The notes: generated by a model from the sequence alone, not told the origin. A DNA stretch of 64,000 bases from Malassezia japonica (GCF_029542785.1 NC_083370.1:1610001-1674000); one strand, 5' to 3'; counted from the stretch's first letter, positions 7,944 to 63,480 are shown. Numbers and translations are program-made.

Positions 7944-9781
7944 CTACCCCATTCCCCGCCCGCCGCCGGTGAGGATCAGTTTCGGCTTGCGTTTCTGGCT
8001 GCGTGCCGACGGCGCAGGCTGCTGCTCCGTCTGTGGCGCGTCGTTCGCATGCTCGAGTGCGTTCCAAGCATCGTCCATCACGCGCGTATCCGGGAGTGCC
8101 GGATCCGCGGCGGTGCTCGGCGCGGCCGGCGTCCCCCACACGGTTTTCTGAGCCGAGTGCGACTTGGGGGTCGACGCAATGCTAGGAAACGGCACGGACT
8201 GCCCCAGCGCATCCTCCTCGACGCCTGGGTGCGTTGGAAAGTGCATTTCTGCACCGATCATGGCCGAATCGCGGAACGAGAGCGTAGCGTCCGGCATGTA
8301 CGCAAATTCGCTCGGTTCCGGCGGCGGCTGGCTGCGCTGTGCGCCCTTTTCCGCCTTGGCACGCGCGCGGTTCTCGCGGGCGTCTTTTTCCTTGTGCCGG
8401 TTCCAGCGCTGCTTGAGCATGCCCTCGAACGGCTTCCACTCGATCGCGCCTTGGGTGTCGGCGAAGCGCGCCGAGGTCTGTGCCCAGTCGACCTCGAGAA
8501 AGGTCACGTCCGAGGACATGGGAAGGTGCGCAATGTACTTGCACTTGCGGCGCAGCGTCTCGTCCATCGTCCCCTCCTCTGCATGCTGGACGACAACACG
8601 CAGCGTGTCGGGAAAGTGAGCGTAAGCCCCAAAGTGCGCCAGGAGCACCTTGACGTCGAGCGGATGAATGAAAATGTTTTGTCCCGAGGCCGCCTGGTAG
8701 AAAAAGTACGATCCCGGCGGCTCGTGCGCGTCCTGCGTGTCGTGTGCGTGCGCGACGGCGTTGCGTGCCACCTGGATACGATGCAGCGCGCGCCCTTCGA
8801 GCTGGGCGTGGACGCGCGCCACCTGCTCGGCGAGGTTTTGCTTCGCGACGTGCAGAAACTCGACGCTGAGCTCGTCGGGCGTGTACTGCTGGAGCACCAC
8901 GACCTCTTTCTCGATCTCGCCAATGTCGCGCTCGAGCGACGCGGCGAGAAACTCGGGGGTGGCAATGACGATGCGTGCGAATTCGAGCGCGTCGGGCTGG
9001 AAGCAGTACACGCCCTCTGGCTGCGCAGCGCGCGGCCACGCCGCCGAGCGCGGAAGCGCGAGCGTCGTGCTCTGCGGGCGCTCGACGAGGCGCAGCGTCG
9101 TGACGCCCGGCTCCTCCCCGCCCTCTGTTCCTTTTTCCGCGAGGTACGCATGCGTAAACTGCGCCGCGTTGCGGCGGGCGTCGAGCCAGTGCACGGCCTT
9201 GAGGTCTTTTGCGTGCACGTCGTCCCAGCAGATCGGGCACCGCTTGCAGTGGCGGTGCGTCGAGATGCCTTTGGGCCGCGTGCCCTCTTCGGCGACCGTC
9301 AAGTAGTGCAGGATGCATGCGTAGCAGTACACATGCCCGCACCGCGTGATGCGTGGCGCACTCGGCGGCGAGAGGCAGATCGGACACGTCGCGTCGCTCT
9401 GCGCTGCGGTCACAGCGAGGTCGGACGTGGAGCTCATCACGACCTGCACAATGTCCTGCCAAGGGAGTGGCGCATCGGGGTTGGCAAAGTGCATCGTGCA
9501 ATCGTACGTCGGCTTCATCACGAAGCGGTACTGTGCATTGACATAGCCTGCATTAGTCTCGCAACGTACGCTCGCGGTTAAACGGCCGTGCATCGACGCG
9601 CCGTGCGCGGCGCGGCGCGCTGGGCGGCGGCGCCCGTGGCGGCAGGGTAAACGAAAGAAGCTGCATAAGACGCGGCACGTACATGGTTCAGACTCTGTCC
9701 CTTCTTCTTCCCCTGCCGATTCCCCTGTCCCCCGCGCCCTTGGGCGTCCGAGACGGGCGCGCTCTGGCCCGAGCTCACCAT
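7944..9781 (-). CDS. RNF10/Mag2-type RING-finger E3 ubiquitin ligase
   Basis: Spliced protein of 597 residues from three exons (9781-9683, 9660-9570, 9547-7944). Two 22-nt introns, 9661-9682 and 9548-9569, restore the family N-terminus: exon 1 ends in KKGQSLNH, exon 2 begins LLSFTLPPR, and exon 3 restores YVNAQYRFVMKP. A C3HC4 RING begins near residue 118 with CPICL, continues CGHVYCYAC and ends CPIC near 170. RNF10 and yeast Mag2 ubiquitinate small-subunit ribosomal proteins on stalled or defective ribosomes; the same role is inferred. The C-terminal third is basic then disordered. Its 3' end faces the second transporter across 125 bp. A longer open frame beginning at 9803 is not used because splicing gives a better family match. 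Confidence 0.88.
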
Positions 9782-9815
9782 CGCGACCGGAGTGAGAAAC
9801 CACGTGGCACTACTT
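9782..9815 (-). promoter_or_regulatory. Short promoter of the RING gene with CCACGTGG
   Basis: Only 34 bp separate the RING gene start from the stop codon of the next gene on the same strand. The palindrome CCACGTGG occupies 9800-9807, 19 bp before the start codon. The same octamer recurs in other very short promoters of this window. Confidence 0.45.
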
Positions 9816-11440
9816 CTACAAAAGACCCTGGCGCTTGAGCAGCTCGTATGTCTTGCGCGTGTATGCCTGTGTGAGTGGTGCGACGTACGTTGCCATGCTC
9901 GTCTTCGATCTCCTCCGTGTCTCCGTCGTCGACGTGCTCGAGCTTTTGCTGCTGCTTCAGCTTTTCATACACTGCGTCAGTAGAAATACGTACAGGCAAA
10001 CGCGTCCTGGATGCGTGTCACGTCGCGGAACTGCACCGTGTTGGGGAGGCCGAGTGCGCGCATGCCAAAGGTGTGCCGCGCCTCTTGAAAGTGCTTCTCA
10101 AAGACCTTGCGGCCGCGGTAGATGTGGTCCGAGCAGATCTCGCACTTGTACTCGACGCTCAGGCCATGCAGCTTGTACATCCAGAACGGAATCGGCTTGC
10201 CGTCCCAGCCCAGGGGAAGCTTCAGCGGGTTGTGCACCTTTTCCGTCGAGTCTGACTCGCGGGCCGCCTTTTCGATCGCGCGCTCGTAGCCCATGCCGCC
10301 GGTCGCGAGCGCCTCCTCGGTCTCGGCCTCGAGCGCCTCGGCCTCGTCCTGGCGCTCGCGGTCGGTGAGCGCGGCCTTGCGCTCGACGTTCGAGCGCGTA
10401 TCTTCCCGCACGGAGCGGAGCTTGCGTGCGAGCGCTTGGACAATCACCTCGTCGCGTGCGAGCGCCTTGGCCTTGGCGAGGCGCTTGGCCTGCTCGAGCG
10501 CCGTGTCGACGTGCTTGGGCGCCTGCGGGCGCAGCTCGCCATTCCGCAGGCGCTCCTCGAGCTTCTTGTGCTTGGTGGACGAGAGGTGCGCGTCGTACAC
10601 GGTCTGCTTGGCATAGTGCCGCTGGCACGCGTCGCACCAAATGCCCTCGGACGGGTCCTTGTCGAGGCTCTTGTCGCCAAACAGCGCCTCTTCCTTGTCC
10701 TCCCAGCCCGGCACCGTGCCGCGCTCCCAGTTTGATTCAAAGAACTCGGCGGCGTGCGTCTCGGGCGCGTCCATATCCTCGAGCGGCCGCGACTTGTGCA
10801 GAAAAGAGGAAAGATAGGTGCGGAGACTCGTCACGTACGCGTGGTAGGCCTCGGTGCGCTTGGTTGACATCGGGACACCCGCGCGCACGCCGCACATCTG
10901 GTCGAGGCGCGCGAGGTACTCGAGGTAGGAGATGCGCTCGACGCCTTTCAGGTTGATGTACATCTCGTACTGAACGTACAAGTCGAGGAAACGGCCGCCC
11001 ATCTCCTCGCCGCTAAATTCGCGGTCCATGATTGAAAAGTCCGACATGAGCTCCTCGCCGCGTGCGAGGATCGACGGCGTGGCGGTCGTCTGCAGCGCGA
11101 CGGCGTTCTCGGGGTATCGTTTGTAGTACTCTTGCACCTTGTCGAGGCGCTTGTAAAATTCTGCGTACGGCCCATTCTCTGTGTCCGTCTCGTCCTGGCG
11201 GCCCAGCGCCTCCCACTCGGCCACGCGCTCCTGGTCGCGGTCTGCGTACATGGCGCTCAGCGACTCGTACTGCCCCACGATCTTGTCCAGGAGCTCGGAC
11301 GAGACGAGCTCCCAGTGCATATTCAGCCGCTTCGACGAAGAGTTCGGCGGGTGGATCAGCGTATCCACGAGCGCATCCTCGTACTGCTCAATCTCCTCGT
11401 GCGTCCTGCGCGCCAGCTCAAACACCGACGTCTCCGCCAT
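9816..11440 (-). CDS. SF3A3: Splicing factor SF3A subunit 3 (Prp9/SAP61)
   Basis: Subunit of SF3a in the U2 snRNP, acting in branch-site recognition in the nucleus. The 526-residue product comes from exons 11440-9994, 9971-9889 and 9866-9816, with two 22-nt introns (9972-9993, 9889 side 9867-9888). Splicing joins DAFA to LYEKLK and ends with the family signature [11 protein letters not shown]. Visible domains: an N-terminal helical region, a matrin-type finger [20 protein letters not shown] near 280, and the conserved C-terminal finger [20 protein letters not shown] near 420 followed by [10 protein letters not shown]. The start at 11440 is the first true ATG. It is divergent from the eIF4A3 gene, with 52 bp between start codons. 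It is noteworthy that a branch-site recognition factor is encoded beside genes full of 22-nt introns. Confidence 0.95.
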
Positions 11441-11492: not shown

Positions 11493-12767
11493 ATGGCGGT
11501 ACGTGCGCCGACTAACGCAGGACGTGCACACGAATCTCGCGTTCGAGAGCAGCGAGGAGGTGACGGTCGCCCCCACCTTTGACTCGCTCGGCCTCAAGGA
11601 CGATCTCTTGCGCGGCATTTATGCATACAGTGCGTTTCTTTTTTTCCTAACCCAGATTTCGAAAAGCCGTCGGCGATCCAGCAGCGTGCGATCCTGCCCA
11701 TCATTCGCGGCCGTGATGTGATTGCGCAGGCGCAGTCGGGAACGGGTAAGACGGCCACCTTTTCCATCTCGATGCTCCAGACGATCGACACGGCGCTGCG
11801 CGACACGCAGGCGCTGGTGCTGAGCCCGACGCGCGAACTTGCGACGCAGATCCAGAGCGTCGTGCTCGCGCTCGGCGACTACATGAACGTGCAGTGCCAC
11901 GCGTGCATCGGCGGCACGTCGGTCGGCGAGGATATCCGTAAGCTCGAGTACGGCCAGCACATTGTCTCTGGCACGCCTGGCCGTGTATTCGACATGATTC
12001 GGCGCCGCAACCTGCGCACCAAGAACATCAAGATGCTTATTTTGGACGAGAGCGACGAGCTGCTCAACATGGGCTTCAAGGACCAGATTTACGATATCTA
12101 CCGCTACCTCCCCCCTGCGACGCAGGTCGTGCTGCTCTCGGCGACGCTCCCGAACGACGTGCTGGAGATGACGACCAAGTTCATGACGGACCCTGTGCGG
12201 ATTCTGGTGAAGCGCGACGAGCTCACGCTCGAAGGCATCAAGCAGTTCTTTGTTGCGGTCGAGAAGGAGGAGTGGAAGTTTGATACGCTGTGCGATCTGT
12301 ACGACACGCTGACCATCACGCAGGCCGTGATTTTCTGCAACACGCGCCGCAAGGTGGACTGGCTGACGGAGCGGATGCGCGAGAACAACTTCCAGATCAG
12401 CAGCATGCACGGCGAGATGCAGCAGAAGGAGCGCGATGCGATCATGAACGAGTTCCGGCAGGGCAGCAGCCGCGTCCTGATCACCACCGACGTGTGGGCG
12501 CGCGGTATCGATGTGCAGAACGTGTCGCTCGTGATCAACTATGACTTGCCTACGTACGTACCGCGACTGACGCAGCAACCGCGAGAACTACATCCACCGT
12601 ATCGGCCGCTCAGGCCGCTTCGGCCGCAAGGGTGTCGCGATCAACTTTGTCACGGTCGACGACGTCAAGATCCTGCGGGATATCGAGCAATACTACAGGT
12701 GCGTTTCTTTCGCTCACCCAGCACGCAAATCGACGAGATGCCGATGAAAATAGACGATCTCATGTAG
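11493..12767 (+). CDS. FAL1: DEAD-box RNA helicase, eIF4A3/Fal1 type
   Basis: ATP-dependent RNA helicase of the eIF4A3 group: exon-junction complex core in animals, 18S rRNA maturation (Fal1) in yeast. The 393-residue product has five exons: 11493-11498, 11521-11629, 11656-12553, 12576-12698 and 12722-12767. Introns are 22, 26, 22 and 23 nt. The first coding exon is two codons (Met-Ala). Motifs in order: [12 protein letters not shown] (Q motif), AQSGTGKT (Walker A), PTRELA, GTPGR, DESD (the DEAD box variant of the eIF4A3 group), [13 protein letters not shown] and [13 protein letters not shown]. The DVWARG form favours eIF4A3/Fal1 over eIF4A, which normally has DLLARG. The last splice joins YY to STQIDEMP, the family C-terminus. 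Confidence 0.94.
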
Positions 12768-18022: not shown

Positions 18023-19261
18023 ATGGCCGACGACGCGGTGCCGTCCGTGCGCGCGGCGCCGCTTACTGCGTCGTATACGTGGCGCTCGCCGATACCTGAC
18101 CAGTGCGTGGGGGGCTCGGGGACGCAGCGCGTCCCGTGCGTGCTCGGCGTGGACGAGGCGGGGCGTGGGCCAGTGCTCGGTACGTATTTTCTCTTATGTA
18201 GGTCCGCTCGTCTACGGCATTGCGTACTGCCCCGAGGACCAGCAAGAGGCGCTGCGCGGTGTGGGGTTTGCCGACTCCAAGACACTTACGCCGGAGCGCC
18301 GCGACGCGCTCCTTGCAGCCCTGCTCGAAAACCACGCATCGATGGGTAGGTCACGTCGCTGACCCAGGCTGGGCCGTACGCGTGATGTCGCCTCAGGACA
18401 TCTCCGCTGGCATGCTCAAGCGCCGGCCGCATAATCTGAATGCACAGAGCAGCGACGCTACCGTCATGCTCATCCAGGGCGTCCTCGACTCGGGCGTGGA
18501 CGTGACAAAAGTAGGTGCTTTATCTCACCCAGATCTTTGTCGACACGGTCGGCGAGCCGGGGGCGTACGCGCGCTTGCTGCAGTCGCACTTTCCCAGGCA
18601 TCCGCATATTGAGTGGACCGTCACAAAAAAGGCCGACGCCATCTATCCGGTCGTCGGCGCGGCGAGTATCGCTGCCAAGGTGACGCGCGACCGCTGCATC
18701 GAGCACTGGATGTACGCGGAACGCAGCCTGCCGCTCGAGCCGGGCGCGGGCGACAAGCGCAAGCGCGATGATGAAGAGAGCGTGTACATCACCGGAAGCG
18801 GCTACCCCGGCGACCCAAAAACCGTGCGCTACCTCCAAGAGACGCTCGACCCGGTATTTGGATGGGCCGGCATCGTGCGCTTCAGCTGGGCGACGGCCAA
18901 GACAATGCTCGAAGAAGCCGTGCGGCCCACAGGATCGCGGCGCAAGACAGAGGCAGCGAGCGAGCCGTCTCTTGCTCCGCTCGGCACGGTGCGGCCCGCA
19001 GCCACGCGGGGCTACGCCGTGCGCTGGATCGACGAGCCTGCGACACTCACCGACTTTTTCTCGCGTGGGCCGCGCAAGATTGGTGCGCCGCGCGCGATGA
19101 GCACCAAGGCCAAGAACGAGAAAGCGCCGGAGCCTGCGCCAACACTCCCTGCGCACCAGCAGCTCCAGCGCACCGATACCGAGACGCTGCGCAAGCAGCG
19201 CCCGGCGCTCTGGGCCGACCTGTCCCTGGGTTCGGCGAGCGCCTCGGATTTGTTTGGATAA
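18023..19261 (+). CDS. RNASEH2A: Ribonuclease H2 catalytic subunit A
   Basis: This 390-residue subunit cleaves the RNA strand of RNA/DNA hybrids and removes single ribonucleotides from DNA. Exons: 18023-18179, 18202-18345, 18368-18510 and 18533-19261; all three introns are 22 nt. Type 2 RNase H motifs are VLGVDEAGRGPVLGPLVYG (catalytic Asp and Glu), where the first splice occurs inside the motif, DSK in FADSKTLTPE, and AASIAAKVTRDRCIEHW. An aspartate follows in GYPGDPKT. The C-terminal tail (about 100 residues) is basic and disordered, longer than in yeast Rnh201. Joining all exons keeps one frame without stops. Confidence 0.95.
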
Positions 19262-19337: not shown

Positions 19338-19713
19338 TTAGAAGAGAATCGCACCAGCAATAACGGCCACAGCAGCAGCGAGGTAGGGCAACGGGGTCGT
19401 CGCCAGCATAGCAGCGCTCGTCAGTTTTTTCGCGTCAGCGTAGCCGGCAATATCCGAAGTGGAGAGGATCGATCCCTGCTTGAAGTTGGAGGGCGTGGGG
19501 GTCGACGACGAGGGCGGAGGGGTGTAGCCCGAGATCGACTCGAGCGACTGCTGGGTCGTCGGCTGGCCGCCACCGCCGCCGAGCGCGGCCTGACGGCGGT
19601 CCAGAGGGGCCTGAGAAGGTGCGACGCCTATGTTAGCCTTGGTACATACCCTCACTCGCCACCACGGCCGCGACCAAGGTCAGGGCAATCGCGAGATACA
19701 CCGCACAGCGCAT
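19338..19713 (-). CDS. Small secreted protein, predicted GPI-anchored
   Basis: A 117-residue protein from two exons (19713-19650 and 19627-19338) joined across a 22-nt intron. It begins with a clear signal peptide (MRCAVYLAIALTLVAAVVAS), continues with a short Gly-, Pro-, Ser- and Thr-rich mature part, and ends in a hydrophobic segment (LPYLAAAVAVIAGAILF) with no following charged tail. That arrangement fits a GPI-anchor signal, so a cell-surface location is likely. I recognise no family. Without the splice the signal peptide is lost, which supports the intron. Confidence 0.75.
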
Positions 19714-19954: not shown

Positions 19955-21303
19955 ATGCCGCCTAAGAAGAACGCCCCTGTTGCTGAGAAGCCGCGTCTTG
20001 GACGCCCTTCGAACAACCTGCAGATGGGCATTGTCGGTCTGCCTAATGTCGGCAAGTCGACGCTGTTCAACACGATCGCCAAGTGCGATCTCGGCAAGGC
20101 TGCCAACTTCCCATACGCGACCATCGAACCCGAGGAGGCCCGTGTGAAGGTGCCGGACGACCGCTTCCTCTGGCTCTGCGACCTCTACAAGCCCAAGTCC
20201 GAGGTGCCTGCTTTCCTGACCTGTGTCGATATTGCCGGTCTTACCGCCGGTGCGAGTACGGGTGCGGGTCTCGGTAACGCTTTCCTGTCGCACGTCCGCG
20301 CCGTCGACGGTATCTTCCAGGTGGTGCGTGCGTTTGACGACTCGGACATTGTCCACGTCGAGGGCGACGTCGACCCGACCCGTGACATGGACATCATCTC
20401 GACTGAGCTGCGTCTGAAGGACATTGAGTGGGTCGAGAAGACTCTCGACAACGCGCGCAAGGTCGCGCGCTCGGCGGGAAACAACTCGCTCGAGGACCGC
20501 AAGAAGAAGGAGGAAGTGGCGGTCATCGAAAAGGTGCTCAAGTGCCTCCAGGAGGACAACAAGGACGTCCGCAAGGGCGACTGGAATGCGAAGGAGGTAC
20601 GTATTGCACGCAGGGCGACAGAGGATGATAAAGAGTGCATCGCACTCGAACATCTTAACCCAGCTCGTCGAGGGCCCCGAACAAGGTCCAAATGAGATAC
20701 ACTCCTATACTGATCTCGCCCTGCATTGACAAGAGAACATGTACTGACCGACAGGTGGACATCATCAACGAGATGAAGCTGCTGACCGCCAAGCCGGTCA
20801 TCTACCTCGTCAACCTCAGCGAGCGCGACTACGTCCGCAAGAAGAACAAGTGGCTCCCGAAGATCAAGGAGTGGATCGACAACAACAACCCCGGTGACCT
20901 GCTGATCCCCTTCTCGGCTTCGCTCGAGGAGCAGCTCTTCTCGCTCGAGGACGAGTCCGCGCAGAAGGAGTACCTCGCCAAGCTCGGCGAGGGCGTTACC
21001 AGCGCGCTCGGCAAGATCACCAAGAGTGGTTACGACGGTCTCGACCTCATCCGCTACTTCACCGCAGGCCCCGACGAGGTTCGCGCCTGGTCGATCCGCC
21101 GCGGTATCAAGGCTCCGGCCGCCGCTGGTGTCATCCACACCGACTTCGAGAACAAGTTCGTCTGTGGTGATATCATGGCCTTTGAGGACCTCAAGGAGGC
21201 CGGCAGCGAAAACGCGTGCCGTGCAAACGGCAAGCTCGCGCAGAAGGGCAAGACGTACGAGATGGTCGACGGTGACATTGCCCACTGGAAGTGTGGTGCG
21301 TAA
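19955..21303 (+). CDS. OLA1: Obg-like ATPase 1 (YchF/Ola1)
   Basis: A 396-residue cytosolic P-loop ATPase of the YchF family, linked to translation and stress responses. Exons 19955-20596 and 20755-21303 flank a 158-nt intron, far longer than almost all others here. The start MPPKK matches the family. Motifs: IVGLPNVGKST (P-loop), PYATIEPEEARV (switch I region), DIAGL (where GTPases have DxxG), and NLSERDYVRKKNKW, in which NLSE replaces the GTPase NKxD and gives ATP preference. A TGS domain completes the protein (FTAGPDEVRAWSIRRGIKAP). A second in-frame ATG at 19856 would add 33 residues resembling a mitochondrial targeting sequence. Confidence 0.95.
20611..20723 (+). ncRNA. Candidate C/D-box-like snoRNA inside the OLA1 intron
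   Basis: Within the 158-nt intron, a C-box-like ATGATAA (20625-20631) and a D box CTGA (20710-20713) are flanked directly by GAGG and TCTC, which pair. This extends into CAGGGC (20611-20616) pairing with GCCCTG (20718-20723). Inside lies another perfect hairpin, GAGTGC-ATC-GCACTC. This is the layout of an intron-encoded C/D snoRNA. The C box has one departure from RTGATGA, and I could not identify an rRNA target, so the call is a candidate only. Confidence 0.4.
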
Positions 21304-21351
21304 TGAGTAGAATGTCCATACGAAGCGATGGCCCTCGGGCAAAAAAATTAT

Positions 21352-21357
21352 AAAAAA
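21352..21357 (-). terminator. RNA polymerase III T-run after tRNA-Val
   Basis: Six consecutive T residues on the minus strand directly follow the tRNA discriminator base, with a second T-run just beyond (21341-21347). This is the usual polymerase III stop signal. Confidence 0.8.
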
Positions 21358-21441: not shown

Positions 21442-21524
21442 CGAAACATATTTCCTCTCTCCTTTTAGGGTAGATAAAGACGTCGCTATAAATTAAAGTT
21501 GGCTTCCCCACACGCCGGTCCGCC

Positions 21525-22978
21525 ATGGTCGTACGGAGCCGGGACGAGTCACAACGTCGGGCAATGTGCGCACAGTGCCGCATACACTCGGACTCATTAT
21601 ACTGCACGAACTGCATTGCATATCGACTAGCGGCGCACCAAAAAGACCATACTCGCATCGCGTCACAGATCGATGGCCTCAAGGTGCAGCTACAGGACCG
21701 CAATGCATCACCCTACTTGTGCGCGCCAGATTCTACACCCAAGCGGGAGAAGGACGTGATACCCGATCCTTTTGCGTATGGAGACGGATCAGAAGCGCCG
21801 GGACCTCTCACGAGCCTCCGACTGCAGCAGCAGCTCAAGGCACAGCGATGCCAATGCGACGACATGCGCAGCGTCGTCGAACGTGCACACGATGTTACCG
21901 CGCTGCTCCAAGCGCAGATCGACGAGAGACGAACCCAGATACGAGTGCGCCGCGAAGCACTTCAGCGCAGTCACGAGGAGCTCCTCGTGCCAAGCGACGC
22001 CACTCTCGGGCCTCGGTACGACAAGCTCGTGGCGCTCCAGGAGCTACTCGTGCAGCAGGAATTGACTGCCAAACGACTGCAGAGGTATGTGCTTATTCTC
22101 ACACAGCGAGCGCCAGCGATTGGGCAAACAGCTCTTGCACATTTACCACGTCGTCCCTCGCGATCCGCCAGATTTGAGCTCCTCGCAGTCAAGCACCGAG
22201 TCACAACGAACGAGCACCACGTCTCGGAGTCGCGCACAATGGGATCTGTGCGACCAGCCCTTTCCCAGTCTGCACAACATGATCACTCTGCGCCGCGACG
22301 ATATCAACGGTGCTGTATACCATACTGCTGCGCTTGTGCGACAATTGGCCATCTACCTCGGCCTCCAGCTTCCGTTTACCATCAAATTTGGACATGGGCG
22401 TGTATTCTTGCGCCCTTCTAGCGTATTCCCAGGCGCGCTCAGTACGTCGGAGCATGCACTCTACATTTCCCAGTCCACGTTCAACACGTTAAGCACCAAG
22501 TTTACGACCAAGCCCGAAGTGCCCAAGCCCGTGCAACCATCGACCATGTCTTTGCTTGCCATGGACAGTATGATGTACGTGCCGCCCGACACCAATACGT
22601 CCCGAGCTCCGACACCACCGCCACGCCCAAGACGGTTTTCGGGCTTGCGTCCGATTGGAGACGGGCCTTCGTTTGCGGCGCTCGGTGCTTTTCCCAATGC
22701 GTGGATGATGCTAGTATACAATATCGTATACTTGGCCTACACACAAGGGTTCAAAGTTCATCGACTCACTGCGGCCACTAATCCTCTTTGGCTCTTGTTT
22801 TACTCTGTACAATCACCCCACTTTGCTACGTACGTTACGCAACTTACCCAGGAAATCACATACCTCTCTGTGTCCAACCCAGCATATACGCGATGTATCT
22901 CTACCGCTCCTGCCATACACTCGCTTCGTTACCCTGCTTGATCCAAGAGCGACAGCAGACACTATGCGCAATTCGTAA
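21525..22978 (+). CDS. ATG14: ATG14-like subunit of autophagy PI3-kinase complex
   Basis: A 469-residue protein from exons 21525-22084, 22107-22829 and 22852-22978, with two 22-nt introns. The N-terminus has paired cysteine motifs (CAQC and CTNC near residues 15-29), as in Atg14/Barkor. Long helices follow (about 75-210), rich in Q, E and R and likely coiled-coil for Vps30/Beclin binding. A conserved C-terminal block contains DDINGAVYHTAALVRQLAIY and LPFTIKFGHGRVFLRPSS. The predicted role is targeting Vps34 to autophagosome formation sites. It could instead be the Vps38/UVRAG relative, since both share this fold. The last intron is supported by its perfect splice motif; reading through it gives an alternative short C-terminus. 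Confidence 0.7.
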
Positions 22979-23076
22979 TGGAAACGAACGTTTAACTTCG
23001 TTATGCGCTCGACGTTATGGTACTCGTAGTTGTAGTTCGTATGCACTGTATTCTATTTACGAAAGGACCATTTACT

Positions 23077-39756: not shown

Positions 39757-39836
39757 CGAGGCAATCGCTGCGTCAGCTACAAGACATACAGTGGAATCCC
39801 GCGAGCGACGGGGCGCCCCCCGCGTCGGCGTCGGCC
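39757..39836. promoter_or_regulatory. 80-bp bidirectional promoter (VPS54/PCC1-like)
   Basis: The divergent starts are 80 bp apart if the first ATG of the right-hand gene is used, or 110 bp with the second. No CACGTG box is present. Confidence 0.35.
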
Positions 39837-51528: not shown

Positions 51529-53645
51529 ATGCCTGGGCGGAGCGGACTGGGGCGGGTGTGTGTGCGCCCTAAGCTGCGTGTATCGCATCCTACTGCGCCT
51601 GTGCGCTGCGGAGCGAGCGCGTTTACGACCCAGAGCGCCAACGCGCGGAATTCGACGACGCGGCCTGCCGGTCGCGTGCCGCCGACAAGCACCTCGGCCG
51701 CGTACCAGCGGCAGCGCCGCACCGAGTGGCTCCTGGTTGGCGTCGCAGGCTCTGCTGCAGCGTTTGGAGGCTGGTACTACTGGGCAAATATCCGTACACG
51801 CCACATGCCCGACGACGCGCGGCCCTACTCGACGCCGGCGCGCCCGTCGACCTTTTCGATTCCTGCACGGGTACGTGGCCCGAACGATCCCGCGTACAAG
51901 GTCATTACGCCGCTGACGCCGGAGGAGGTCGATTCGCGCCTGCGTGCGAATGAGCGCAGCACGTCGGTCGACCGCCCGGCCGGCGCGTGCCTTGTGGCGC
52001 GCTACGACACGAACTGCGTGCCGAGCAACGACCCGGTCGAGGACCGCCACGCGGAAGTCATCGTCGAGCGCGACCGCGGGATCAGCGAGCAGGGCCCGCG
52101 CGGTGACCTGTGCTTCTTTACGGTGATGGACGGCCACGGCGGCCACTATACCTCCCAGCTTCTTTCGCAGAAGCTCATTGCGTTTGTCGCACTCGAGCTC
52201 GACAAGGTCTTTCGCGAGACGGGCGAGTACGCCAAGATGGGGCGCGCCGACATGTCGATTTCTTCGTCGGTGTGGCGCACGCTCTTTGGCGGCGACCGCC
52301 AAAAGAATGCACACCAGCTCGCGGCCTATGCGCTGGACGGCAACCCCGAGATTGTGAAGCGCGCCTTTGTCAAGGGCTTCCGCGGCCTCGACAAGGAGAT
52401 TACCAACACGCCGCTCGAGCTGCTCAAACAGTACGAGCTGAGTCTCGCCGCGGCCTCTTCGCAAGGCACCGCGCCGAGCGCGTCCGACTCGAAGAACTCC
52501 CTCTCGTCGCTCGCCCACTCGATCTGGCCGTCGACGGTGACCGGCGCGCCGCACGCTGCGCCGTTCTTTAGCGCGTCGCAGACGTCCGCTCGCGAGGCGC
52601 TCCTGCCGGCGCTCAGCGGAAGCTGTGCCCAGATGGTGTACATTGACAGCGCCCGCCGCGACCTGTACGTCGCCACGACCGGCGACTCGCGCGCCGTCGC
52701 GGGGTACTGGGACGAGCGCGCTGGGCGCTGGGAGGTCGAGGCGCTCTCCATCGACCAGACCGGCCGCAACCCCGACGAGGTGCGCCGCATCCAGCGCGAG
52801 CACCCCGCCGACGAGCAGCAGTCGGTCATCCAGCGGGGACGTGTGCTGGGCGGCCTCGAGCCGACGCGCGCCTTTGGCGACGGCCGCTACAAGTGGGACC
52901 GCAACACGCAGGCGCGCCTCATCGAGGCGTTCCTGCCGAACCGCCAAAGCGCGCGTGGGCCGCCCAAGGCACTCCAGACGCCGCCCTACGTCACCGCCGA
53001 GCCGGTCGTCGAGTGGCGCAAGATCCCGATCGGGCACGAAGAGCACGCGCAGCCGGACTCGCTCGTCGCCGCCGCCTCCGAGGGCCTTACGTCGCTCTCG
53101 GGCAGCACCTCGACGCGCGAGCTGCGCTTCATCATCATGGCGACCGACGGGCTCTGGGACCTGATGTCGAACCAGGAGGCAGTCGGCCTCGTGGCCGGCC
53201 ACCTCGCCGGGATCCGCGGCGAGGTGCGTGCCGCGGACCTGCAGCAGCAGTGCTTTTCGCCGTCCAAGAGCGCGCCCGCACTCGCTGCCAAGGCGGCGGC
53301 GTCCGACGAGAAGGCCACGCCCTCGTCCGAGCACGGGCCACACCACCCCCTGCTGCGCACGCCGAACCACCTGCAAAAGTTCTCGTTCCAAGACGACAAT
53401 CTGAGCACGCACTTGGTGCGCAATGCGCTCGGCGGCGCCGCGCGCGAGCGCGTCGCCGGCCTGCTCGCCATCCCCAGCCCCGAGTCGAGGCGGTACCGCG
53501 ACGATGTACGTACAATAACTAACCCAGATCACTGTCAAGTATGTGTGCTACGAACTAACCCAGTGTCATCCTCTTCAACACCCCCAAACCGAAAGCCAGC
53601 CGCGACGAGGCGTCGGCGCACGCGCCGCGGGCCGCCAAATTGTAG
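51529..53645 (+). CDS. Mitochondrial-type PP2C protein phosphatase (Ptc5-like)
   Basis: A 689-residue protein from exons 51529-53505, 53528-53538 and 53564-53645. The introns are 22 and 25 nt and enclose an 11-nt microexon. Splicing restores the last PP2C strand (RRYRDDITV then VILFNTPKPK), which the unspliced frame destroys. The N-terminus is Arg/Ser-rich like a mitochondrial presequence, followed by a membrane segment (WLLVGVAGSAAAFGGWYYW). PP2C metal-binding motifs: EDRHAE, VMDGHGGH, ATTGDSRAV and MATDGLWD. Yeast Ptc5 dephosphorylates pyruvate dehydrogenase; the same role is plausible. Several low-complexity insertions enlarge the domain. Confidence 0.9.
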
Positions 53646-53795: not shown

Positions 53796-54244
53796 ATGTC
53801 GCGCCAGATTACGTTCGCTGAGCTCTGCGAGCACAACACCGAGCAGGACCTGTGGCTCCTCATTGACGGCAAAGGTATGCTGAAAAAAAACTAATGTAGT
53901 CTACGATGTGACTAAGTTCATGCCCGAGCACCCTGGTGGTGACGAGGTTCTTACCACCGAGGCTGGCAAGGACGCAACCGAGCACTTTGAGGACGTCGGC
54001 CACTCGGACGACGCCCGCGACCAGCTCAAGGGCATGCTCATCGGCACGCTCGCTGACCCGGTACGTGGCTTGACTAATCGGCAGGAGAACGTGCCCAACA
54101 CTAACCGCTCGTCCACCGAGGGCGGCACTACGGCCGTCGGCCAGCCGTACGTATCTATGCTTACCCAGCCCCCTGCTTGTCATCCTTGCCGTGCTGGGTG
54201 TTATCGCCTACTTTGGGTACACCCGCTTTGTGCTCAAGCAGTAA
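53796..54244 (+). CDS. CYB5: Cytochrome b5, tail-anchored
   Basis: A 125-residue ER protein from four exons: 53796-53874, 53900-54060, 54085-54146 and 54169-54244, with introns of 25, 24 and 22 nt. Heme ligands are His in [10 protein letters not shown] and His in [11 protein letters not shown]. The C-terminal anchor is [20 protein letters not shown], followed by VLKQ. It donates electrons to fatty-acid desaturases and sterol enzymes. The 24-nt intron is the only short one here that is a multiple of three, and it contains no in-frame stop, so retention would insert eight residues before the linker. The stop is 1 bp from that of the convergent gene. Confidence 0.94.
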
Positions 54245-54245: not shown

Positions 54246-55220
54246 CTAGTCCCGTAGACTAGGACCAACAAGTCGAGAGTCGTTCCAGGCAGCCAGGCGC
54301 CATAACGCAACGCCGAGGGGGGAAAGGCGCGGGTGCGGTGCGAGGGAAAAGACTCCGTGCTCGTGCGAGGCGAAGGCGGGCGCACCGCGCACCAGCTCGG
54401 ACAGGTGCGCGAGCGCGGCCGCACGCAGCGCCGCGTCCCCAAATAGCCCAGGCACGGCATAGGCTACGCACGCGCCCGGCGGCGAGAGACGCGCCGCCGC
54501 GCCGTCGGTAGACTCGTGCAGGACAAGCGAGGCGCCATGACGAGGCGCCTCGGGGGTATACAGAGCGTCCGACCGCATATGCCTCGCTTGGGCCGGACCG
54601 GGGTGGTATGGCGCCGATGCAGCGTTATCTGCGTGCGCTGCTGCACGCTCAAGCGCCCCGGTCTGTGCACGCGCAACAGCCAGCTCGAGCTCCTGAACAA
54701 CACGCTCCTGCAACTGGTGCGTCACGAGCGGCAGGACACGCGGCAAGAGACTCGCTTCCGGCGCGACTGAGCGGTGCATTTCTGCGTAAGCCACGCCACG
54801 TACGTTTCTCCTGGAGCCGCTGGAATACCTGCTGGTCGCCCAGCACCCACATGCCCTTGCCGAGCTTTTTCTGCGCGTACCGCGGATGGAGTATGCCATC
54901 TGGGAGAAGCGTCAGCTCGGTGCCTTCGCCTTTGGGTATATGCACAACTTTGAGCTGTATCATCAGGCCTACATGAGCCTCGTAGCGTACCGTTAGGAAG
55001 CGCAGCATGCGTCACAATGCAGCGGCGCAGCGGCGACGCGAGCAGGTGGACTGCGTCAGTCTCCTCACGTACGCAGCGGATTCGACTCCCAGCGCGCCTC
55101 GAGCTCGTGCATACTCTTCTCTGCATCTGAAGCGCCCGACGCGTACCGCACGCCGCGGCACGCGCCCCGTACGGCGCTCCACACGCCGAGCCGCCGCGGC
55201 GCTCTCAGCAGGCCGGCCAT
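54246..55220 (-). CDS. Unknown protein with mitochondrial presequence
   Basis: A 302-residue protein from exons 55220-55073, 55050-54991, 54968-54804 and 54781-54246; all three introns are 22 nt. No long open frame covers it, yet the four exons join in one frame and give a typical mitochondrial targeting start ([20 protein letters not shown]). A compact domain follows ([20 protein letters not shown], then [33 protein letters not shown]), then a helix-rich C-terminal half. It may be a mitochondrial ribosome or translation-associated protein, but I cannot name a family. Confidence 0.75.
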
Positions 55221-55285: not shown

Positions 55286-56147
55286 ATGGCGGTCGACGCG
55301 GCGCTCAAGGCGGCGCACGCCAAGCTCCTTGCCGAGTTCAATGGACTGAACAAGAGAAACACTGCAAGTTCGCTGAATGCGGTGGCAGGTCAGCTTGCCG
55401 AGCTCAAGCTCCTGCTTGCCGAGCGCGAGCTGCTCTACCCCCAGCCGCTGGCGAACGGCCAGCTGGATATCGATGCGTTGGTTCTCGCGCGCGAGACCTT
55501 TGAGATCGGTGCGCTGTGGAGCGTGCTTGCAAAAGACACAAACAGCTTTGACCGGTACTGGAGCCAGCTGAAGCCGTTCTACCTCGATCTACAGTACGTT
55601 TTTTTACTCACGCAGCGCGGCGCTTCCCCCGTCGGCGAACTACGAGCCGATCGTCGGCCTGTCGCTTTTGCGTTCGCTCTCGTCGAACGACATCTCGTCC
55701 TTCCATATGGCTCTCGAGACGCTGCCTACGGATCTCGTGCAGAACAGCGAATACATCAAGCACCCCGTGCTCCTCGAGCGCTGGCTCATGGAGGGCTCCT
55801 ACTCCAACGTCTGGCGCGAGCGCAACAAGGTGCCGCGCGAAGAGTTCCGTTTCTTTGTGGACATGCTCATGGTCACGATCCGTCACGAAATCGCCTCGTG
55901 CGAAGAAAAGGCGTACGATACGCTCCCCCTGAACGACGTCGCCACCCTGCTCTTTTTCGACAGCCTGCCCGAGGTGCTCGAGTTTGCCAAGGAGCGGGGA
56001 TGGCATGTGAACCCCACGAGCCAGACAGTCGAGTTTGCCAACAAGCACTCGGAACGCGGCGCGGCGCACGACGAGGAACGCATCCCGATGCGTGCGACGA
56101 TTTCCTCCAACCTGCACTTTGCGCGCGAGCTGGAGAGCATTGTGTAG
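55286..56147 (+). CDS. RPN12: 26S proteasome regulatory subunit Rpn12 (PSMD8)
   Basis: A 279-residue PCI-domain subunit of the proteasome lid, nuclear and cytosolic. Exons 55286-55593 and 55616-56147 flank a 22-nt intron; the splice yields YLDLHAALPPSANYEPIVGL, as in the family. The PCI region includes LLRSLSSNDISSFHMALETL, HPVLLERWLMEGSYSNVW, RHEIASCEEKAYDTLPLNDV and LEFAKERGWHV. The length fits the family (about 270). Its 3' end is 42 bp from that of the HMG-box gene. Confidence 0.94.
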
Positions 56148-56189
56148 GAAATAGAGTACAACTACAATACATACGGAGTCATTGGTATG

Positions 56190-58755: not shown

Positions 58756-59812
58756 CCTACGAGCGGCGTGCCCGCCGCACGCTCCATGAGCTTCTCAAGC
58801 TCAGTGCTGTCCTGTGGCGTCTCGTTCTTCACTGCGCCAAACATGCGCACGACAAAAGCGCCGACGGCCTGTTCACCGATCTCGACCTCTGCACGAGGGC
58901 CCCAGCGGTACTCGGCCGCAGGCGCCTGCGCAGAGCCGTCGCTGCCGCGCACGGTCTCGACACGCACTTTTTCTAGATACCCCTGGCGCTGCAGCTGGGC
59001 CATGTAGGTCTCCAACGTAAGCTTGTGGTCGCCCGAAAAGCGCTGGCGGCTCTGTGTCGATGTCTCGCCCTCGTCGCTGCCGTGAAACGGCTGCAGCGCT
59101 GACGGAAGCGCACGGTCGACCGACAGCGAGAGCTGCGCAAGATAGGCACGGAGACGCCCTTCGTCGACGCGGCGGCCGCACAGCAGAATGATGCTGAGAA
59201 TAAGAAAAAGGAGGCCCATGCCGCCGAGCTGGGCATCCATGCTCCAGTCAACGAGCGCCGCGTCTTGGGTATCACGCCGCCCCAGTTCTTGAAGGACGGC
59301 AGGCGGCAGCGTCGAGCGCAGCATCCACGTAGCCGACGCCGACATGTCCTTCCGCGTCGGCTCAGTACGCTGCCGCTTGGCACCCACACGCTCATCGAGC
59401 TTCTCGGCCTGCTCGACCAGCAGCGGATTCTCCTGGTTGCGTGCGCGCATCTCCACGAGCTCGTATGCAAAGGTGGTCTTGAGCATGTGCTGCGCAACCG
59501 CAAAAATAACCGGAAACGCACGACTCGCGTCCTTTCCAATAACTGTGTTAAGTAAAGAACCTACTCTTTTTCATTACATCGTCGCGGCGCAGGGGGTGCC
59601 GCCGATACTCGGTAAAGAGTGCCATCCGCACGAGGTCGCCGGCCATGCGCTCGACCGTCTGCGTCAGCCTATTCACGTACATCCTGTCCGATCGCATGTG
59701 CAGTGCTCTTGGCGCCAGGAGCGAGGTGCGCCATTGCCTCCTCGCCCAGCAGCTCGCCGATCCACGCGTGCGCGTCAGGCGCGTCCGCCGCACGACGCGC
59801 TGGACGCGGCAT
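58752..59812 (-). CDS. NSE3: Smc5-Smc6 complex subunit Nse3 (MAGE family)
   Basis: A 338-residue protein from exons 59812-59681, 59658-59565 and 59542-58752 with two 22-nt introns. The MAGE homology domain is rebuilt by splicing: LVRMALFTEYRRHPLRRDDV, then ASRAFPVIFAVAQHMLKTTF, YELVEM, and the second winged helix starting GGMGLLFLILSIILLCGRRV. Nse3 binds Nse1 and Nse4 and DNA in the Smc5/6 complex that handles recombination intermediates. The C-terminal part includes RWGPRAEVEIG as in other members. Its start is 44 bp from that of the next gene. Confidence 0.88.
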
Positions 59813-59856: not shown

Positions 59857-60520
59857 ATGTTCAAGCGGCTGAGCAAGGCGCAGGCGCTCCGCGAGGAGCT
59901 CGGCGAGGAGACGGAGGAGACGGGTCCCGTCACCATCGAGACGGCCCTGGACGAGGAGAGTGCGAGTGAGGAGGAGTTTAGCGATGACGATGACGACGAC
60001 AATGACGATGATGAGGAAGACGAGGAGGGCGACGACGATGAAGAGGACGAAGGCGACGTACAATTCACCGTCCGTGATGCGCTCGAGAGCCCCATCTACC
60101 TGGACGACGAGGCACCCGGACGCGCCGAGATTTTCCGGTGCGTCGCATGCCCGATCGTCATGCTAAAGAACGACAAGGCCATTGAAGTGCATGCCGAGAG
60201 CAAGGTACGTCGCCGGACTCATCCAGAACCACAAGCGGCGGTTCCACCGTTTTGTCGAGTTTGCGCATGCCGAGTCAGAGCGCGAAGGCGACCGTGTGAT
60301 GGCGCTCGACCCCCGCACGCTTGCCGACCTGCTCGAGGACGAGCGGCGAGCTGAGGAGAAGAAAGCACCGGCGAAGCGCAAAGAGCCGTCGAGCACCGAC
60401 CACGTCTCGCGTGTCGAGCGCCGCAAGCAGCGCCGTGCGGTCCGCAATGAGAAGCGTGCAGGCCTCCAGGAGGCGTACGCCAAGCGCATGGAGAAAGAAG
60501 GTGGCGCGTCTACCAAGTAG
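59857..60520 (+). CDS. Acidic protein with single CxxC...H zinc-finger-like motif
   Basis: I do not recognise this 213-residue protein. Exons 59857-60204 and 60227-60520 flank a 22-nt intron. The N-terminal third has an almost continuous Asp/Glu run (about 42-68). The motif CVACPIVMLKNDKAIEVHAESKNH spans the splice and looks like a C2H2 finger of the kind found in RNA-binding nucleolar proteins. The C-terminus is very basic (KQRRAVRNEKRAGLQEAY). A nuclear or nucleolar role in ribosome assembly is plausible from composition only. Its stop codon touches that of REX3. Confidence 0.78.
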
Positions 60521-62150
60521 TTATGTACAAAGCTCCGCCCACTTGTGCCGCACAAGTTCGAGTGTCGTCTGTGCGTCTTCGGCAGAGGAGTGGCCGACGG
60601 CCGAGCCGCCTGCCTGGATGATCTTGCCGAGGTACTTGGCGACCAGGTCGCGCAGTGCGAGGCGGAACGGCAGGCCGCGGGGATGCGGAAAGAGCTGGCA
60701 CGTATCGATGATAGTCGTGTGCACCACGCGAATCGCGCGCAGATCGTTTTCGAGGCCATGGCCAATCTAGGTCAGCAAGGCAACGTACCAAAACCGTATT
60801 CGGCCCGACGTAGCGCGCGAGCGCGCGCCGCGCCGCCTCGAGGTCCAGCACGGCGTTCGCCTCGTACTCCTCCGGCTGGATACCGGAGAATTGTGTATTA
60901 AAGTCGAGCACGGCGACGTCGTCGGTGCACCGCACAAGCTCGTCAAAGACAATCTCGCCGCTCTCGTCGATCAGCGTGATGCGCGTAACGCTCAGGCCCT
61001 GCGTCGTATAGCTCATCTCGCAGTCCAGAGCAGCAAGGTCGAGCGCCCCGCTACTTCCCCCCATCTCCTCGGCGAGCTGCGCAAAGGTGGTATACGGCGC
61101 GCGGTGGTGCAGTGCCTCCTCGGCCTCTTCCTTAAAGACGTGGGGCCCGGTCGCGCAGCGGTCGTCGCCGAGCGCCTGGGTGTCGACCGTGCGCCCGCAG
61201 CACGTCCACCGCTGGACCTTGCGGCGCTTTCCGTCGCTCGCTTCTTCGCGGCGGGGACGCCCAGGGTGGAAGCGGCATGCTTCAGGGTCCTGGCCTCCGT
61301 GTGCGGCCGTCTGCAGCGGCGCAACAAGGAACAACGTGCCGCAGCGCGCACACGTCTGCTTTTCGCCGGCGCCATTGATGCGGTCGCCGCCCGGTCCCCA
61401 GGCTGCGGGAATCTCGGTGAGGTACCCCAGCGTCTGCAGGTCGCCTTTTGGGCACAGGAAGCCCGCCTTGACGACGCGCTCGCGTGTGAGGTAGTGGGCC
61501 TTGCGGTCCTCGGCCTTTTTTCGCTTCGCCATTACCTCGGCATTCGTCCCGGTCTCGGTGCAGCGCAGCAGAATCGCACGCGCGGCGTCCGCACCGCCGT
61601 GGTGCGTGGCTGCGCACGCCTCGTCGACGGCCTCGGCGAGCGCTTCCTTGTTGCGTTTCGTCACGCTCATTGCCGCGCTCATGCTCGAGTTGCGGTACGA
61701 GTGCTCGCTCGCGAGGCGAAACACGTCGGCCTCTATCGCGCGCGCATCCGTCGTGCACAGGTCAGCGCCGATCGTGCGCATCGTGGGGTCCGCATGGGTA
61801 ATGAGCGGCTTGTAAAAGACGGAGAGCGTGCCAAAGATCTTTTGGATGCCATTTTTTCGTGCCCCCAGCGAGATTTTCGAAGAGGCAGGGTGCACCCTGC
61901 TCGTAATCACCGGGCACTCGAGGCCGCCGGGCGCCGCGGCGGGCGGCGGGCGCGCCGCCGCCTTGGCCGGCGGTGCGGCCTTTTCCTTGGCCGGCGTCTC
62001 TTCGACTTTGCGGCGCTTGGCTTCCTGCACCTGCGCCTCAAGCAGCCTTAAATCATGCGAGTACGGGCACTGGACACGGTCGCCCTCGCACGCCCCATCG
62101 CGAAACGCAGGGCACACGACCCCGCTCAAGAGGCCCGCTGGCCGAAACAT
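60521..62150 (-). CDS. REX3: RNA exonuclease 3 (DEDDh family)
   Basis: A 535-residue protein from exons 62150-60789 and 60766-60521 with a 22-nt intron. An N-terminal CCCH finger (CPAFRDGACEGDRVQCPYSH) is present near residue 13-32. The exonuclease domain has LAALDCEMSYT (Asp, Glu), then after the splice LIGHGLENDLRAIR (Asp), and GHSSAEDAQTTLEL (His, Asp). The splice falls exactly before the IGHGLENDL motif. Yeast Rex3 trims RNase MRP RNA and other small RNAs. A Cys/His cluster (CARCGTLF...CRFHPG...CCG) near 275-330 may bind another zinc. The start is 21 bp from that of ERG27. Confidence 0.9.
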
Positions 62151-62171
62151 GCGAGGCGAACCTCCACTTCC
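62151..62171. promoter_or_regulatory. 21-bp gap between divergent start codons (REX3/ERG27)
   Basis: Only 21 bp separate the two ATGs. Both starts are constrained by essential domains close to the N-terminus, so the gap cannot be widened much by choosing other starts. Promoter elements must overlap coding sequence or transcripts must overlap. Confidence 0.6.
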
Positions 62172-63480
62172 ATGAGCCGCCCGATTGTCTTGGTGACCGG
62201 CGCGAACGGCGGCGTGGGCCTCGGCGTGTGCGAGCGCCTGCTTGTGCAGCTCTCGACGCCGGCGCCCCCAGACAGCACTGCGCTATATGGCGGTCGCGAA
62301 GATGCGGCCGGCACGCCGTTTGATGCCAGCAACGGGTGCACGCTGATCCTCGCGTGCCGCAACGAGGCAAAAGCGCGTGCGGCGATCGAGGCGCTCGAGG
62401 CGCTGCTACAGAAGCTGCATGACCAGGTGGACGACGACCTTCCGGAGCGTGTGGGCTCGGCGGCGAGCTCGGCGGTCGACGCCCCGTCAAAGGATGGCCT
62501 GCGCACGCGCCAGTTTACCAATGACCGCAGCGCCCCGCTGGCCGAGCGCAATGCGGTTGCGCGCACCGAATACCGCCGGCGCTTTGCGCGCAACTCGAAA
62601 ATCGAGTTTGTCAAACTCGACCTGGCGAGCGTCGCGAGCACCAAAGCGTGCGCGCAGGAAGTGCTGGCGACCTACCCCTACCTCACGCACCTGATCCTCA
62701 ACGCGGGCGGCGCGGCGTGGGCCGGCGTCAACTGGCCGCTGGCGTTCTTTGAGATTATCACGAACCTGCACCGTGGTGTGACGCGCCCGTCGTACAAGCT
62801 GCAGAACCCTAGCGAGACGACCGCCGACGGCTTCGGCTGGGTGTGGGAGATCAACTGCGGCATGCACTATGTGCTCGCGAACGCGCTCGTGCCCCTGATG
62901 CGCAAGTCGCCGTACAAGACGCCGTCGCGCATCATCTGGACCGGCTCGCTCGAGGCGAGCCAGCGCGACTACCACCCCGAGGACTTCCAGTGCCTCGACC
63001 CCAAGGTGTCGCCGCACGCGTACGAGTCGACCAAGTACCAGTGCGAGCTCGCGGCACTCGGCATGGACGAGCGTCTCGCGGCGACGCACGAGCACGCGCC
63101 CCGCGTCTACACGGCGCACCCCGGCATTGTCGCGAGCAGCATCTTTGCCGAGGTCATCCACGTGGTGCTCCTCTCGCTCATGAAGCTCGTGTTCTACGTG
63201 GTACGTCGCACTACTGACCCAGGCGCGCTGGACCTTTTCGCCGCACCACCCCATCGACGCGTACAAAGGCGCGATCGCCGCCTCGTACGTTGCCGTCGCC
63301 CCGGCCGAGGACCTCGACTCGACCGCGCGGTACGGCGCGCAGTGCACCTTTTTCGGCCGCGAGTACGTCTATCCCGGACAGATCGACGGCTGGCAGGCGA
63401 CAGATGGCCCTGCGCGTGTCACGGACCTCGCCCGCGACCTCCTCCGTCGCTACGACGCGGCGCTCAGCGGGGTCCTGTAG
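62172..63480 (+). CDS. ERG27: 3-keto-steroid reductase Erg27
   Basis: A 428-residue short-chain dehydrogenase for C-4 demethylation in ergosterol synthesis, at the ER or lipid droplets. Exons 62172-63200 and 63223-63480 flank a 22-nt intron. The cofactor motif is VTGANGGVGLGV at residue 8, LILNAGG follows, and the catalytic YESTKYQ near 285 supplies Tyr and Lys. After the splice the family run ARWTFSPHHPIDAYKGA appears. The length is longer than yeast Erg27 (347) because of loops near 30-60 and 95-130. Confidence 0.94.

Follow-up and report, generated by a model that had tools for sequence, protein, structure and literature searches.

Introns of extreme shortness are known from several eukaryotic groups, with lengths of 15-16 nucleotides (nt) in Stentor, 16-17 nt in mikrocytids and 18-21 nt in chlorarachniophyte nucleomorphs according to the accessible text of two accounts (PMC9505925, PMC10245619). 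Within the yeast genus Malassezia, 'very short introns' are also in print (PMC7426719), and the available parts of two reports give 2,150 introns for M. restricta KCTC 27527, with a mean of 37.2 and a median of 30 nt, RNA sequencing hints, and annotation minima of 20 and 15 nt (PMC6473144, PMC9241646). Here, we analyze a stretch of 64 kb from Malassezia japonica (the window: contig 1, bases 1,610,001-1,674,000, of an 8.43-Mb, nine-contig genome) that is rich in introns of exactly 22 nt, in which a presumed branch site lies next to the acceptor. An earlier note on this DNA had proposed such a class, together with a guess that short Malassezia introns had already been noticed, which is borne out by the literature (PMC7426719, PMC9241646).

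The M. restricta and other Malassezia accounts concern the same genus and likewise short introns, but in their accessible parts they mention neither a 22-nt peak nor a fixed branch-to-AG element nor any splicing-factor change, and the accessible part of a study that includes M. sympodialis gives no such 22-nt class (PMC8476143). Stentor introns are shorter, share the narrow length class and also end 5 nt after the branch adenosine, but their branch consensus is weak and Slu7 and Prp18 were not found, whereas M. japonica has a strict branch site and both genes (PMC9505925). Mikrocytid introns form a narrow class conserved in sequence and are shorter than those of M. japonica (PMC10245619), and nucleomorph introns of 18-21 nt form a comparably narrow but shorter class. 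The type B introns of Trichomonas vaginalis and T. stableri are uniform, at 23-25 nt (to 28 nt in T. stableri), and their branch and 3' splice sites are merged as in M. japonica, although there are 24 and 52 of them (PMC12316389) as against thousands of signal matches here, and the gap between branch motif and AG is 4 nt in Trichomonas (PMC2483917) and 2 nt in M. japonica. Yarrowia lipolytica has the same 2-nt gap and no polypyrimidine tract, but its introns are described as fairly long by comparison with the other species examined, unlike those of M. japonica (PMC2483917).

The M. japonica class is thus a variant and not a length record, as introns of 15-21 nt exist elsewhere. In the literature searched, judged by titles and the beginnings of abstracts and with most subscription papers outside its reach, we found no description of the 22-nt class, of its composite 3' end, or of the erosion of U2AF65 in Malassezia that accompanies them.

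Short introns in the window and the genome

The strict motif GTRNGT...CTNAYNNAG, scanned on both strands of the window with the reversed sequence as control, yields 27 matches that are exactly 22 nt long, of which 17 are on the plus strand and ten on the minus strand; the control has one match per strand (55 and 35 nt) and none at 22 nt. Because a motif scan could be self-fulfilling, a gene model blind to length and motif was built, which works on two strands from codon usage only and takes as an intron any GT...AG span of 10-250 nt, all lengths being equiprobable. This was applied to a 264-kb sample, made up of the window plus 20 segments of 10 kb drawn from eight of the nine contigs, and placed 94 introns, 39 of them exactly 22 nt, with 23 nt as the next commonest length (n=6). 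Control pairs in place of GT...AG yielded 76 introns with three at 22 nt (CT-AC), 78 with two (TG-GA), 82 with none (GT-GA) and 93 with two (GC-AG). The 22-nt spike is not chance, and it alone stands out. CTNAYNNAG is present in 37 of the 39 introns of 22 nt, and GTRNGT likewise in 37, neither signal having been given to the model.

Across the whole genome the exact-length pattern GTRNGT-N7-CTNAYNNAG has 3,144 matches, against 15 for the same pattern read backwards, in agreement with the earlier proposal of a genome-wide class of mostly 22-nt introns. Of the 98 strict 22-nt sites in the 264-kb sample, 96 have enough flank, and 44 of these are clearly coding both before and after the intron; downstream of these 44, splicing gives the best frame in 44/44 and retention in 0/44. 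With GT-AG ends, a branch-site motif and a frame restored on removal, the segments have the features of U2-type spliceosomal introns. U12-type introns, which carry an RTATCCTT donor and a TTCCTTRAY branch site, do not match the donor GTACGT and the branch motif CTNAY.

A later coding-plus-signal model, in which donor and branch signals are scored separately and the branch position is free, includes 73 of the 98 strict sites of the sample. In the window it places 30 introns and covers 20 of the 27 strict sites, those outside it beginning at 9661, 22085, 22830, 30989, 46743, 54782 and 55051. One model intron of 64 nt, at 58582, is probably spurious. The 28 window introns of 22 nt counted in the earlier note are recovered as the 27 strict sites plus 59543-59564, which has a TTAAC branch; of its other lengths, two introns of 23 nt, one of 24, one of 26, the 158-nt intron and three of four 25-nt introns (starting at 43397, 46700 and 53539) are found again, and the fourth 25-nt intron and one of 170 nt were not located.

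Spliced proteins were compared with proteins of solved structure, and 11 junctions are gap-free in five of them: three in eIF4A3, two in SF3A3, three in RNase H2A, one in Rpn12 and two in a PDP1-like phosphatase. Human DDX48 aligns with eIF4A3 over 387 residues without a gap, spanning introns of 26 nt (11630..11655), 22 nt (12554..12575) and 23 nt (12699..12721) on the plus strand; a further 22-nt intron in the first exon (11499..11520, plus strand; strict motif, coding model) falls outside the alignment. The introns of SF3A3, RNase H2A and Rpn12 lie in gap-free stretches of otherwise gapped alignments with the human proteins. Those of RNase H2 subunit A are 22-nt introns on the plus strand at 18180..18201, around the DEAGRGPVLGP motif, 18346..18367 and 18511..18532, and that of Rpn12/PSMD8 is a 22-nt intron at 55594..55615 (plus strand), gap-free at the junction.

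SF3A3 (Sap61/Prp9) has two 22-nt introns on the minus strand, at 9867..9888 (strict motif, coding model) and 9972..9993, and both positions are joined in the annotated proteins of four relatives, M. yamatoensis, M. pachydermatis, M. sp. CBS 17886 and M. cuniculi. The SF3A3 protein of another relative, P0002 (81% identical), has eight and seven extra residues exactly at the two intron positions, and, to judge from the protein letters, these would fit retained introns of 24 nt (GTACGT...CTGACGCAG) and 21 nt (GTNCG...CTNACNCAG). Of the genes named in the earlier note, eIF4A3, SF3A3, RNase H2A and Rpn12 have gap-free homology at these junctions, and those called RNF10, Rex3, Erg27 and cytochrome b5 have domain matches (RING, RNase_T, short-chain dehydrogenase and cytochrome b5).

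Two micro-exons stand between such introns. The PDP1-like phosphatase has an 11-nt exon at 53528-53538 (plus strand), coding for ITV plus two bases of the next codon, between a 22-nt intron (53506..53527) and a 25-nt intron (53539..53563), both with the strict motif, in the coding model and covered by the human PDP1 alignment; across it, YRDDITVNVILFN aligns gap-free with YRDDITIIVVQFN of human PDP1. In VID27 an 18-nt exon at 46725-46742 (plus strand) encodes LFGKIW, and lies between a 25-nt intron (46700..46724; strict motif) and a 22-nt intron (46743..46764; strict motif, open spliced reading, outside the coding model), both in keeping with relatives' proteins; a further 22-nt intron follows at 47225..47246 (strict motif, coding model). 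The segment MFMLKSLFGKIW is shared with VID27 of M. furfur (P0225), M. sympodialis (P0229), M. yamatoensis (P0224) and Violaceomyces (P0237), and an (F)GK(I)W-like motif is present within the first 140 residues in 50 of the 120 VID27 relatives listed, including the outgroup Violaceomyces. The VID27 proteins of M. vespertilionis (P0230) and M. sp. CBS 17886 (P0231) are without LFGKIW, and their gene models probably skip the 18-nt exon. Three further short-exon candidates are seen at the motif level: one of 10 nt flanked by 22- and 23-nt introns (L014 77-131, plus strand), one of 20 nt flanked by 36- and 32-nt introns (L016 7167-7254, minus strand) and one of 35 nt flanked by 28- and 22-nt introns (L022 3191-3275, plus strand). 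Several public Malassezia proteins (P0003, P0006, P0015, P0224, P0230 and P0231) are misnamed, SF3A3 for example as 'DNA ligase' and VID27 as 'tRNA methyltransferase', as if the ill-fitting names had been carried over in annotation.

The VID27 locus bears on the idea that the true introns are longer and the 22-mers parts of them. The coding model did sometimes pick a longer span, as in a 65-nt call at 46700-46764, but that call skipped the micro-exon and was replaced by the 25- and 22-nt introns, a longer cut across 46725-46742 would delete six residues present in relatives, and homology flanking the 22-nt cuts elsewhere is gap-free; we regard longer introns as very improbable. Still more remote is that the segments are not introns at all and represent assembly frameshifts, programmed frameshifting, or DNA eliminated before transcription. 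Nothing was found in its favor for the class, and the SF1 gene, which breaks frame at a C run without intron signals, shows that single frame breaks do occur; fixed-spacing GT...CTNAY..AG at thousands of sites, 44/44 restored frames, gap-free proteins and positions joined in relatives refute it for the class. As judged from frame and homology, the 22-nt introns are a real, genome-wide class with thousands of signal sites.

Anatomy of the 22-nt intron and its length floor

The consensus of 60 modelled 22-nt introns (from a donor-trained round over the 264 kb) is GTACGT-N7-CTNAY-N-C/T-AG, and the donor GTACGT is the usual one, as the earlier note had it. The 22 nt are made up of 16 nt from G+1 (GTACGT, seven free bases and CTN), the presumed branch A, and 5 nt (Y-N-N-A-G). 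In 75 introns the seven bases after the donor are unremarkable, and C makes up 65% and T 5% of the two bases that separate the branch motif from AG. There is a strong branch motif at a fixed short distance from AG and no pyrimidine tract, and at a length of 22 nt a polypyrimidine tract has no space between the branch point and AG.

The spacing within these introns is tightly constrained. In a motif-only count over the 264 kb the branch A is preceded by 16 nt, counted from G+1, in 104 matches, by 17 nt in 14 and by 15 nt in none; distances of 10-14 nt have 15 matches altogether, against five in the reversed control. The AG ends 5 nt past the branch A in 132 matches, with 6 nt next (n=6) and three control matches at 5 nt, and these two peaks reproduce the earlier estimates of about 5 nt to the junction and about 16 nt from the donor. 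By total length the strict motif occurs 98 times at 22 nt, 11 times at 23 nt and not at all at 17-21 nt. A relaxed pattern, GTACGT-N(4-18)-CTNAYNCAG, which admits 19-33 nt, has 2,534 genome matches and ten in the control; among the first 100 matches listed, all on the plus strand within 0.64 Mb of the start of contig 1, 82 are of 22 nt, 18 are longer and none is shorter. The class lies within a few nt of one length genome-wide and sits at a floor, and the shortest well-populated donor-to-branch spacing is also the commonest.

The coding-plus-signal model gives a similar picture over the 264 kb, with 132 introns, 76 of them of 22 nt. Not virtually all introns belong to the class, as there is a tail to hundreds of nt, which is probably chance in some part. 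Among the 124 introns with a scoring branch site, 100 have the branch A 5 nt from the junction and 87 have 16 nt in front of it. Two modelled introns fall below 22 nt, at 20 and 21 nt; they too have 16 nt before the branch A, and their tails are cut to 3 and 4 nt, so the floor is one of donor-to-branch spacing. The earlier description of 22 nt as near the physical minimum for a spliceosome does not hold, since introns of 15-21 nt are known elsewhere; the 16-nt spacing is a floor for this lineage only.

Of the 44 frame-tested introns, 17/10/17 are in phases 0/1/2. Lengths of 23/24/25/26/27 nt number 11/2/7/4/3 in the motif-only scan of the 264 kb, too few to judge avoidance of multiples of three, and a similarly few 6/3/4/3/1 among the first 100 relaxed matches listed. 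In-intron stop codons as a guard against retention are unsupported: an in-frame stop is present in 10/44, and the median first stop on retention lies at 152 nt.

U2AF65 and the reading of the 3' end

The small nuclear RNAs U2 and U6 were found (RF00004 and RF00026 matches), and their pairing regions are canonical, with GUAGUA in U2 and ACAGAGA in U6. Donor position +4 is C in 83% of the 60 modelled 22-nt introns, though ACAGAGA is kept, and a compensatory change in U6 is rejected. For U1 the Rfam model was silent in M. japonica and in 14/14 control genomes, and the sole pattern match is without a U1 5' end. Genes for Slu7, Prp18, SF1 and a U2AF65-like protein are present in M. japonica. With Slu7 and Prp18 both there, the idea that they were lost, as has been reported of Stentor, is rejected. 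U2AF35 (L045) aligns with S. pombe U2AF23 over 174 residues gap-free. The SF1 gene (L040; G000 C1:62350-62662, minus strand) shifts frame at a C run after an SPSP motif, where no intron signals were seen; both an assembly miscall in the C run and a real frameshift are possible.

The earlier note had suggested an adapted acceptor selection mechanism and called for a comparison of splicing factors, and this comparison gives signs of one in U2AF65. The M. japonica protein (100% identical to MJAP1_004289) matches human U2AF65 structures; its score with the U2AF65 family model is 224 bits, below the curated cut-off of 310, and the model also weakly matched 2/14 control genomes. In an alignment of 101 homologues, a clade of 18 (support 1.0) contains all six named Malassezia proteins and is set against 83 others, rows gapped at a position being set aside (nine at RRM1 RNP2). 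We take the RNP positions compared to be the RNA-stacking residues of human U2AF65, whose RNP letters appear in the structure match, and the ULM tryptophan and UHM residues to be those that bind partners.

Several of these stacking positions are eroded in the clade. The RRM1 RNP2 tyrosine is present in 3/18 clade proteins and in none of the six named species, which have D, L, V, R, Q and Q, as compared with 73 Tyr and one Phe among 74 others. Position 5 of RRM1 RNP1 is Phe in 2/18 and aromatic in 8/18, against 74/77 and 75/77; position 3 of the same motif is aromatic in 9/18 against 77/77, and position 3 of RRM2 RNP1 in 4/18 against 82/83. M. japonica itself has D at RRM1 RNP2 and M at RNP1 position 5. 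As the replacements are of many kinds, the pattern looks like relaxed constraint and not one new function. The partner-binding motifs are kept, with the U2AF35-binding ULM Trp in 17/18 and the UHM Arg and Phe in 18/18. A predicted structure of modest quality (predicted local distance difference test, pLDDT, 68; predicted template modelling score 0.35) has the expected strand-helix order in RRM1, with block pLDDT of about 72-90, and because of this order the RRM1 fold seems to be kept despite the residue losses.

Mean pairwise identities for RRM1/RRM2/UHM are 0.48/0.63/0.64 in the Malassezia clade, 0.67/0.82/0.69 in ten other Ustilaginomycotina and 0.87/0.91/0.72 in eight Agaricomycetes. These numbers bear on a passive account in which deletion bias shrinks introns to the shortest length that an unchanged spliceosome tolerates, and the U2AF65 change reflects general fast protein evolution. 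A deletion-to-threshold model has been proposed for mikrocytids in the accessible text of that study (PMC10245619), and the clade protein does diverge fast outside RRM1 too (UHM at 0.64). The change is uneven, however: RRM1 RNP2 and RRM2 RNP1 position 3 are altered in most members while the ULM and UHM residues are kept, and clade RRM1 identity is well below that of the UHM, whereas in Agaricomycetes it is above and in Ustilaginomycotina barely below. We consider passive shrinkage alone unlikely.

A different reader of the 3' end, in which an RBM17/SPF45-type UHM protein together with Smu1/RED-type factors replaces U2AF65 on 22-nt introns, fits the loss of RNA-binding residues in U2AF65 and has been published for some human short introns, so far as the available text of two reports goes (PMC8363638, PMC12862383). 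The retained ULM and UHM motifs of U2AF65 and the conserved U2AF35 suggest that U2AF still acts, and this alternative seems to us somewhat less likely again.

The reading that we favor, with better than even confidence, is that these are ordinary U2-type introns shrunk to a lineage-specific floor, with a 3' end read as a composite and U2AF65 serving mainly as a scaffold. The lack of room for a tract, the composite acceptor, the intact AG reader and the partly eroded tract reader make it simplest to suppose that U2AF65 links SF1/U2 and U2AF35. The branch site CTNAY would be read by SF1 and then by U2, and the AG by U2AF35; U2AF65 would mainly connect SF1 and U2AF35, reading no polypyrimidine tract. 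A deletion bias would trim introns until recognition of the 5' splice site and of the branch site collide, which would set the floor, and splicing would proceed by intron definition, because exons as short as 11 nt stand between such introns. The order of events may have been either way, tract loss allowing shrinkage or shrinkage removing the need for tract reading.

Several observations weigh against this composite-acceptor reading. Slu7 and Prp18 are retained, although where the branch lies close to the AG they are considered dispensable, and SF1 reads in two frames in this assembly. Excision from RNA is deduced from frame and homology, and many of the 55 blind-model introns of other lengths may be chance, because the control pairs also yield 76-93 'introns'. 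The strict motif matches once at 15 nt and once at 16 nt in the 264 kb (control, none), a minority of introns are long, and some best-scoring branch sites lie 7-36 nt from AG. In U2AF65, RRM1 RNP1 position 8 is kept in 18/18 clade proteins, RRM2 RNP2 position 2 and RNP1 positions 5 and 8 are aromatic in 18/18 each, and M. japonica keeps Tyr at RRM1 RNP1 position 3, so that some RNA binding may remain. Because the U2AF65 change is that of one clade, it provides a single case of correlation with intron shape, and among Malassezia intron shape was measured in the M. japonica genome alone.

Further introns of the window and implications

The remaining introns of the window are predominantly of the same kind. 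A RING-finger gene on the minus strand (RING Pfam matches; RNF10-like according to the earlier note) has a 22-nt intron at 9548..9569 (strict motif, coding model) and a 22-nt candidate after a short 5' exon at 9661..9682 (strict motif, open spliced reading, outside the coding model). Introns of 22 nt with strict motif and coding model are at 19628..19649 and 39768..39789 on the minus strand and 40188..40209 and 60205..60226 on the plus strand, and a 23-nt intron with the same support is at 29540..29562 (minus strand). Candidates of 22 nt with strict motif and open spliced reading, outside the coding model, are at 22085..22106 and 22830..22851 (plus strand) and at 54782..54803 and 55051..55072 (minus strand). 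A further 22-nt candidate near a gene start, at 30989..31010 (plus strand; strict motif, outside the coding model), is ambiguous, as the open reading frame from 30956 is open unspliced.

Pfam matches, strict motif and coding model together mark a 22-nt intron in a Y_phosphatase2-family gene (42694..42715, plus strand), a 25-nt intron in a kinase-like gene (43397..43421, minus strand), a 22-nt intron in an RNase_T exonuclease gene (60767..60788, minus strand; Rex3-like in the earlier note) and a 22-nt intron in a short-chain dehydrogenase gene (63201..63222, plus strand; Erg27-like there). The cytochrome b5-domain gene on the plus strand has a 24-nt intron with the branch A 7 nt from the junction (54061..54084; coding model, Pfam match) and a 22-nt intron (54147..54168; strict motif, coding model). 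Two 22-nt introns share a gene on the minus strand, called Nse3-like by the earlier note only: 59543..59564, in the coding model and with TTAAC in place of CTNAY, and 59659..59680 (strict motif, coding model). The 158-nt intron (20597..20754, plus strand; coding model) has its branch A 7 nt from the junction, and lies in what is presumably an Obg-like ATPase gene. GC content is 0.53-0.54 in window positions 20001-28000 and 0.61-0.67 from 28001 on.

Extreme introns have so far come mostly from ciliates, relict nuclei and parasites, to go by the available parts of those accounts (PMC9505925, PMC10245619, PMC12316389), and Malassezia is a basidiomycete yeast. Annotation of such genes may go wrong where the gene finder sets a longer minimum intron, as the VID27 proteins without LFGKIW and the SF3A3 insertions of P0002 suggest. 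A broader proposition, to which we give slightly less than even weight, is that Malassezia as a genus gave up polypyrimidine-tract reading, with U2AF65 a scaffold between SF1 and U2AF35, CTNAYNNAG a single nine-base site, and introns collapsed to a hard 16-nt minimum between 5' splice site and branch. If true, it would invert the situation in Saccharomyces, where U2AF35 is absent and Mud2 is all that remains of U2AF65, as given in the accessible text (PMC8624252). Transformation and gene deletion are established in M. furfur and M. sympodialis (PMC5654937, in its available part), and in Malassezia one could study how the minimum spacing of 5' splice site and branch point is fixed, and what role U2AF65 plays without a tract.

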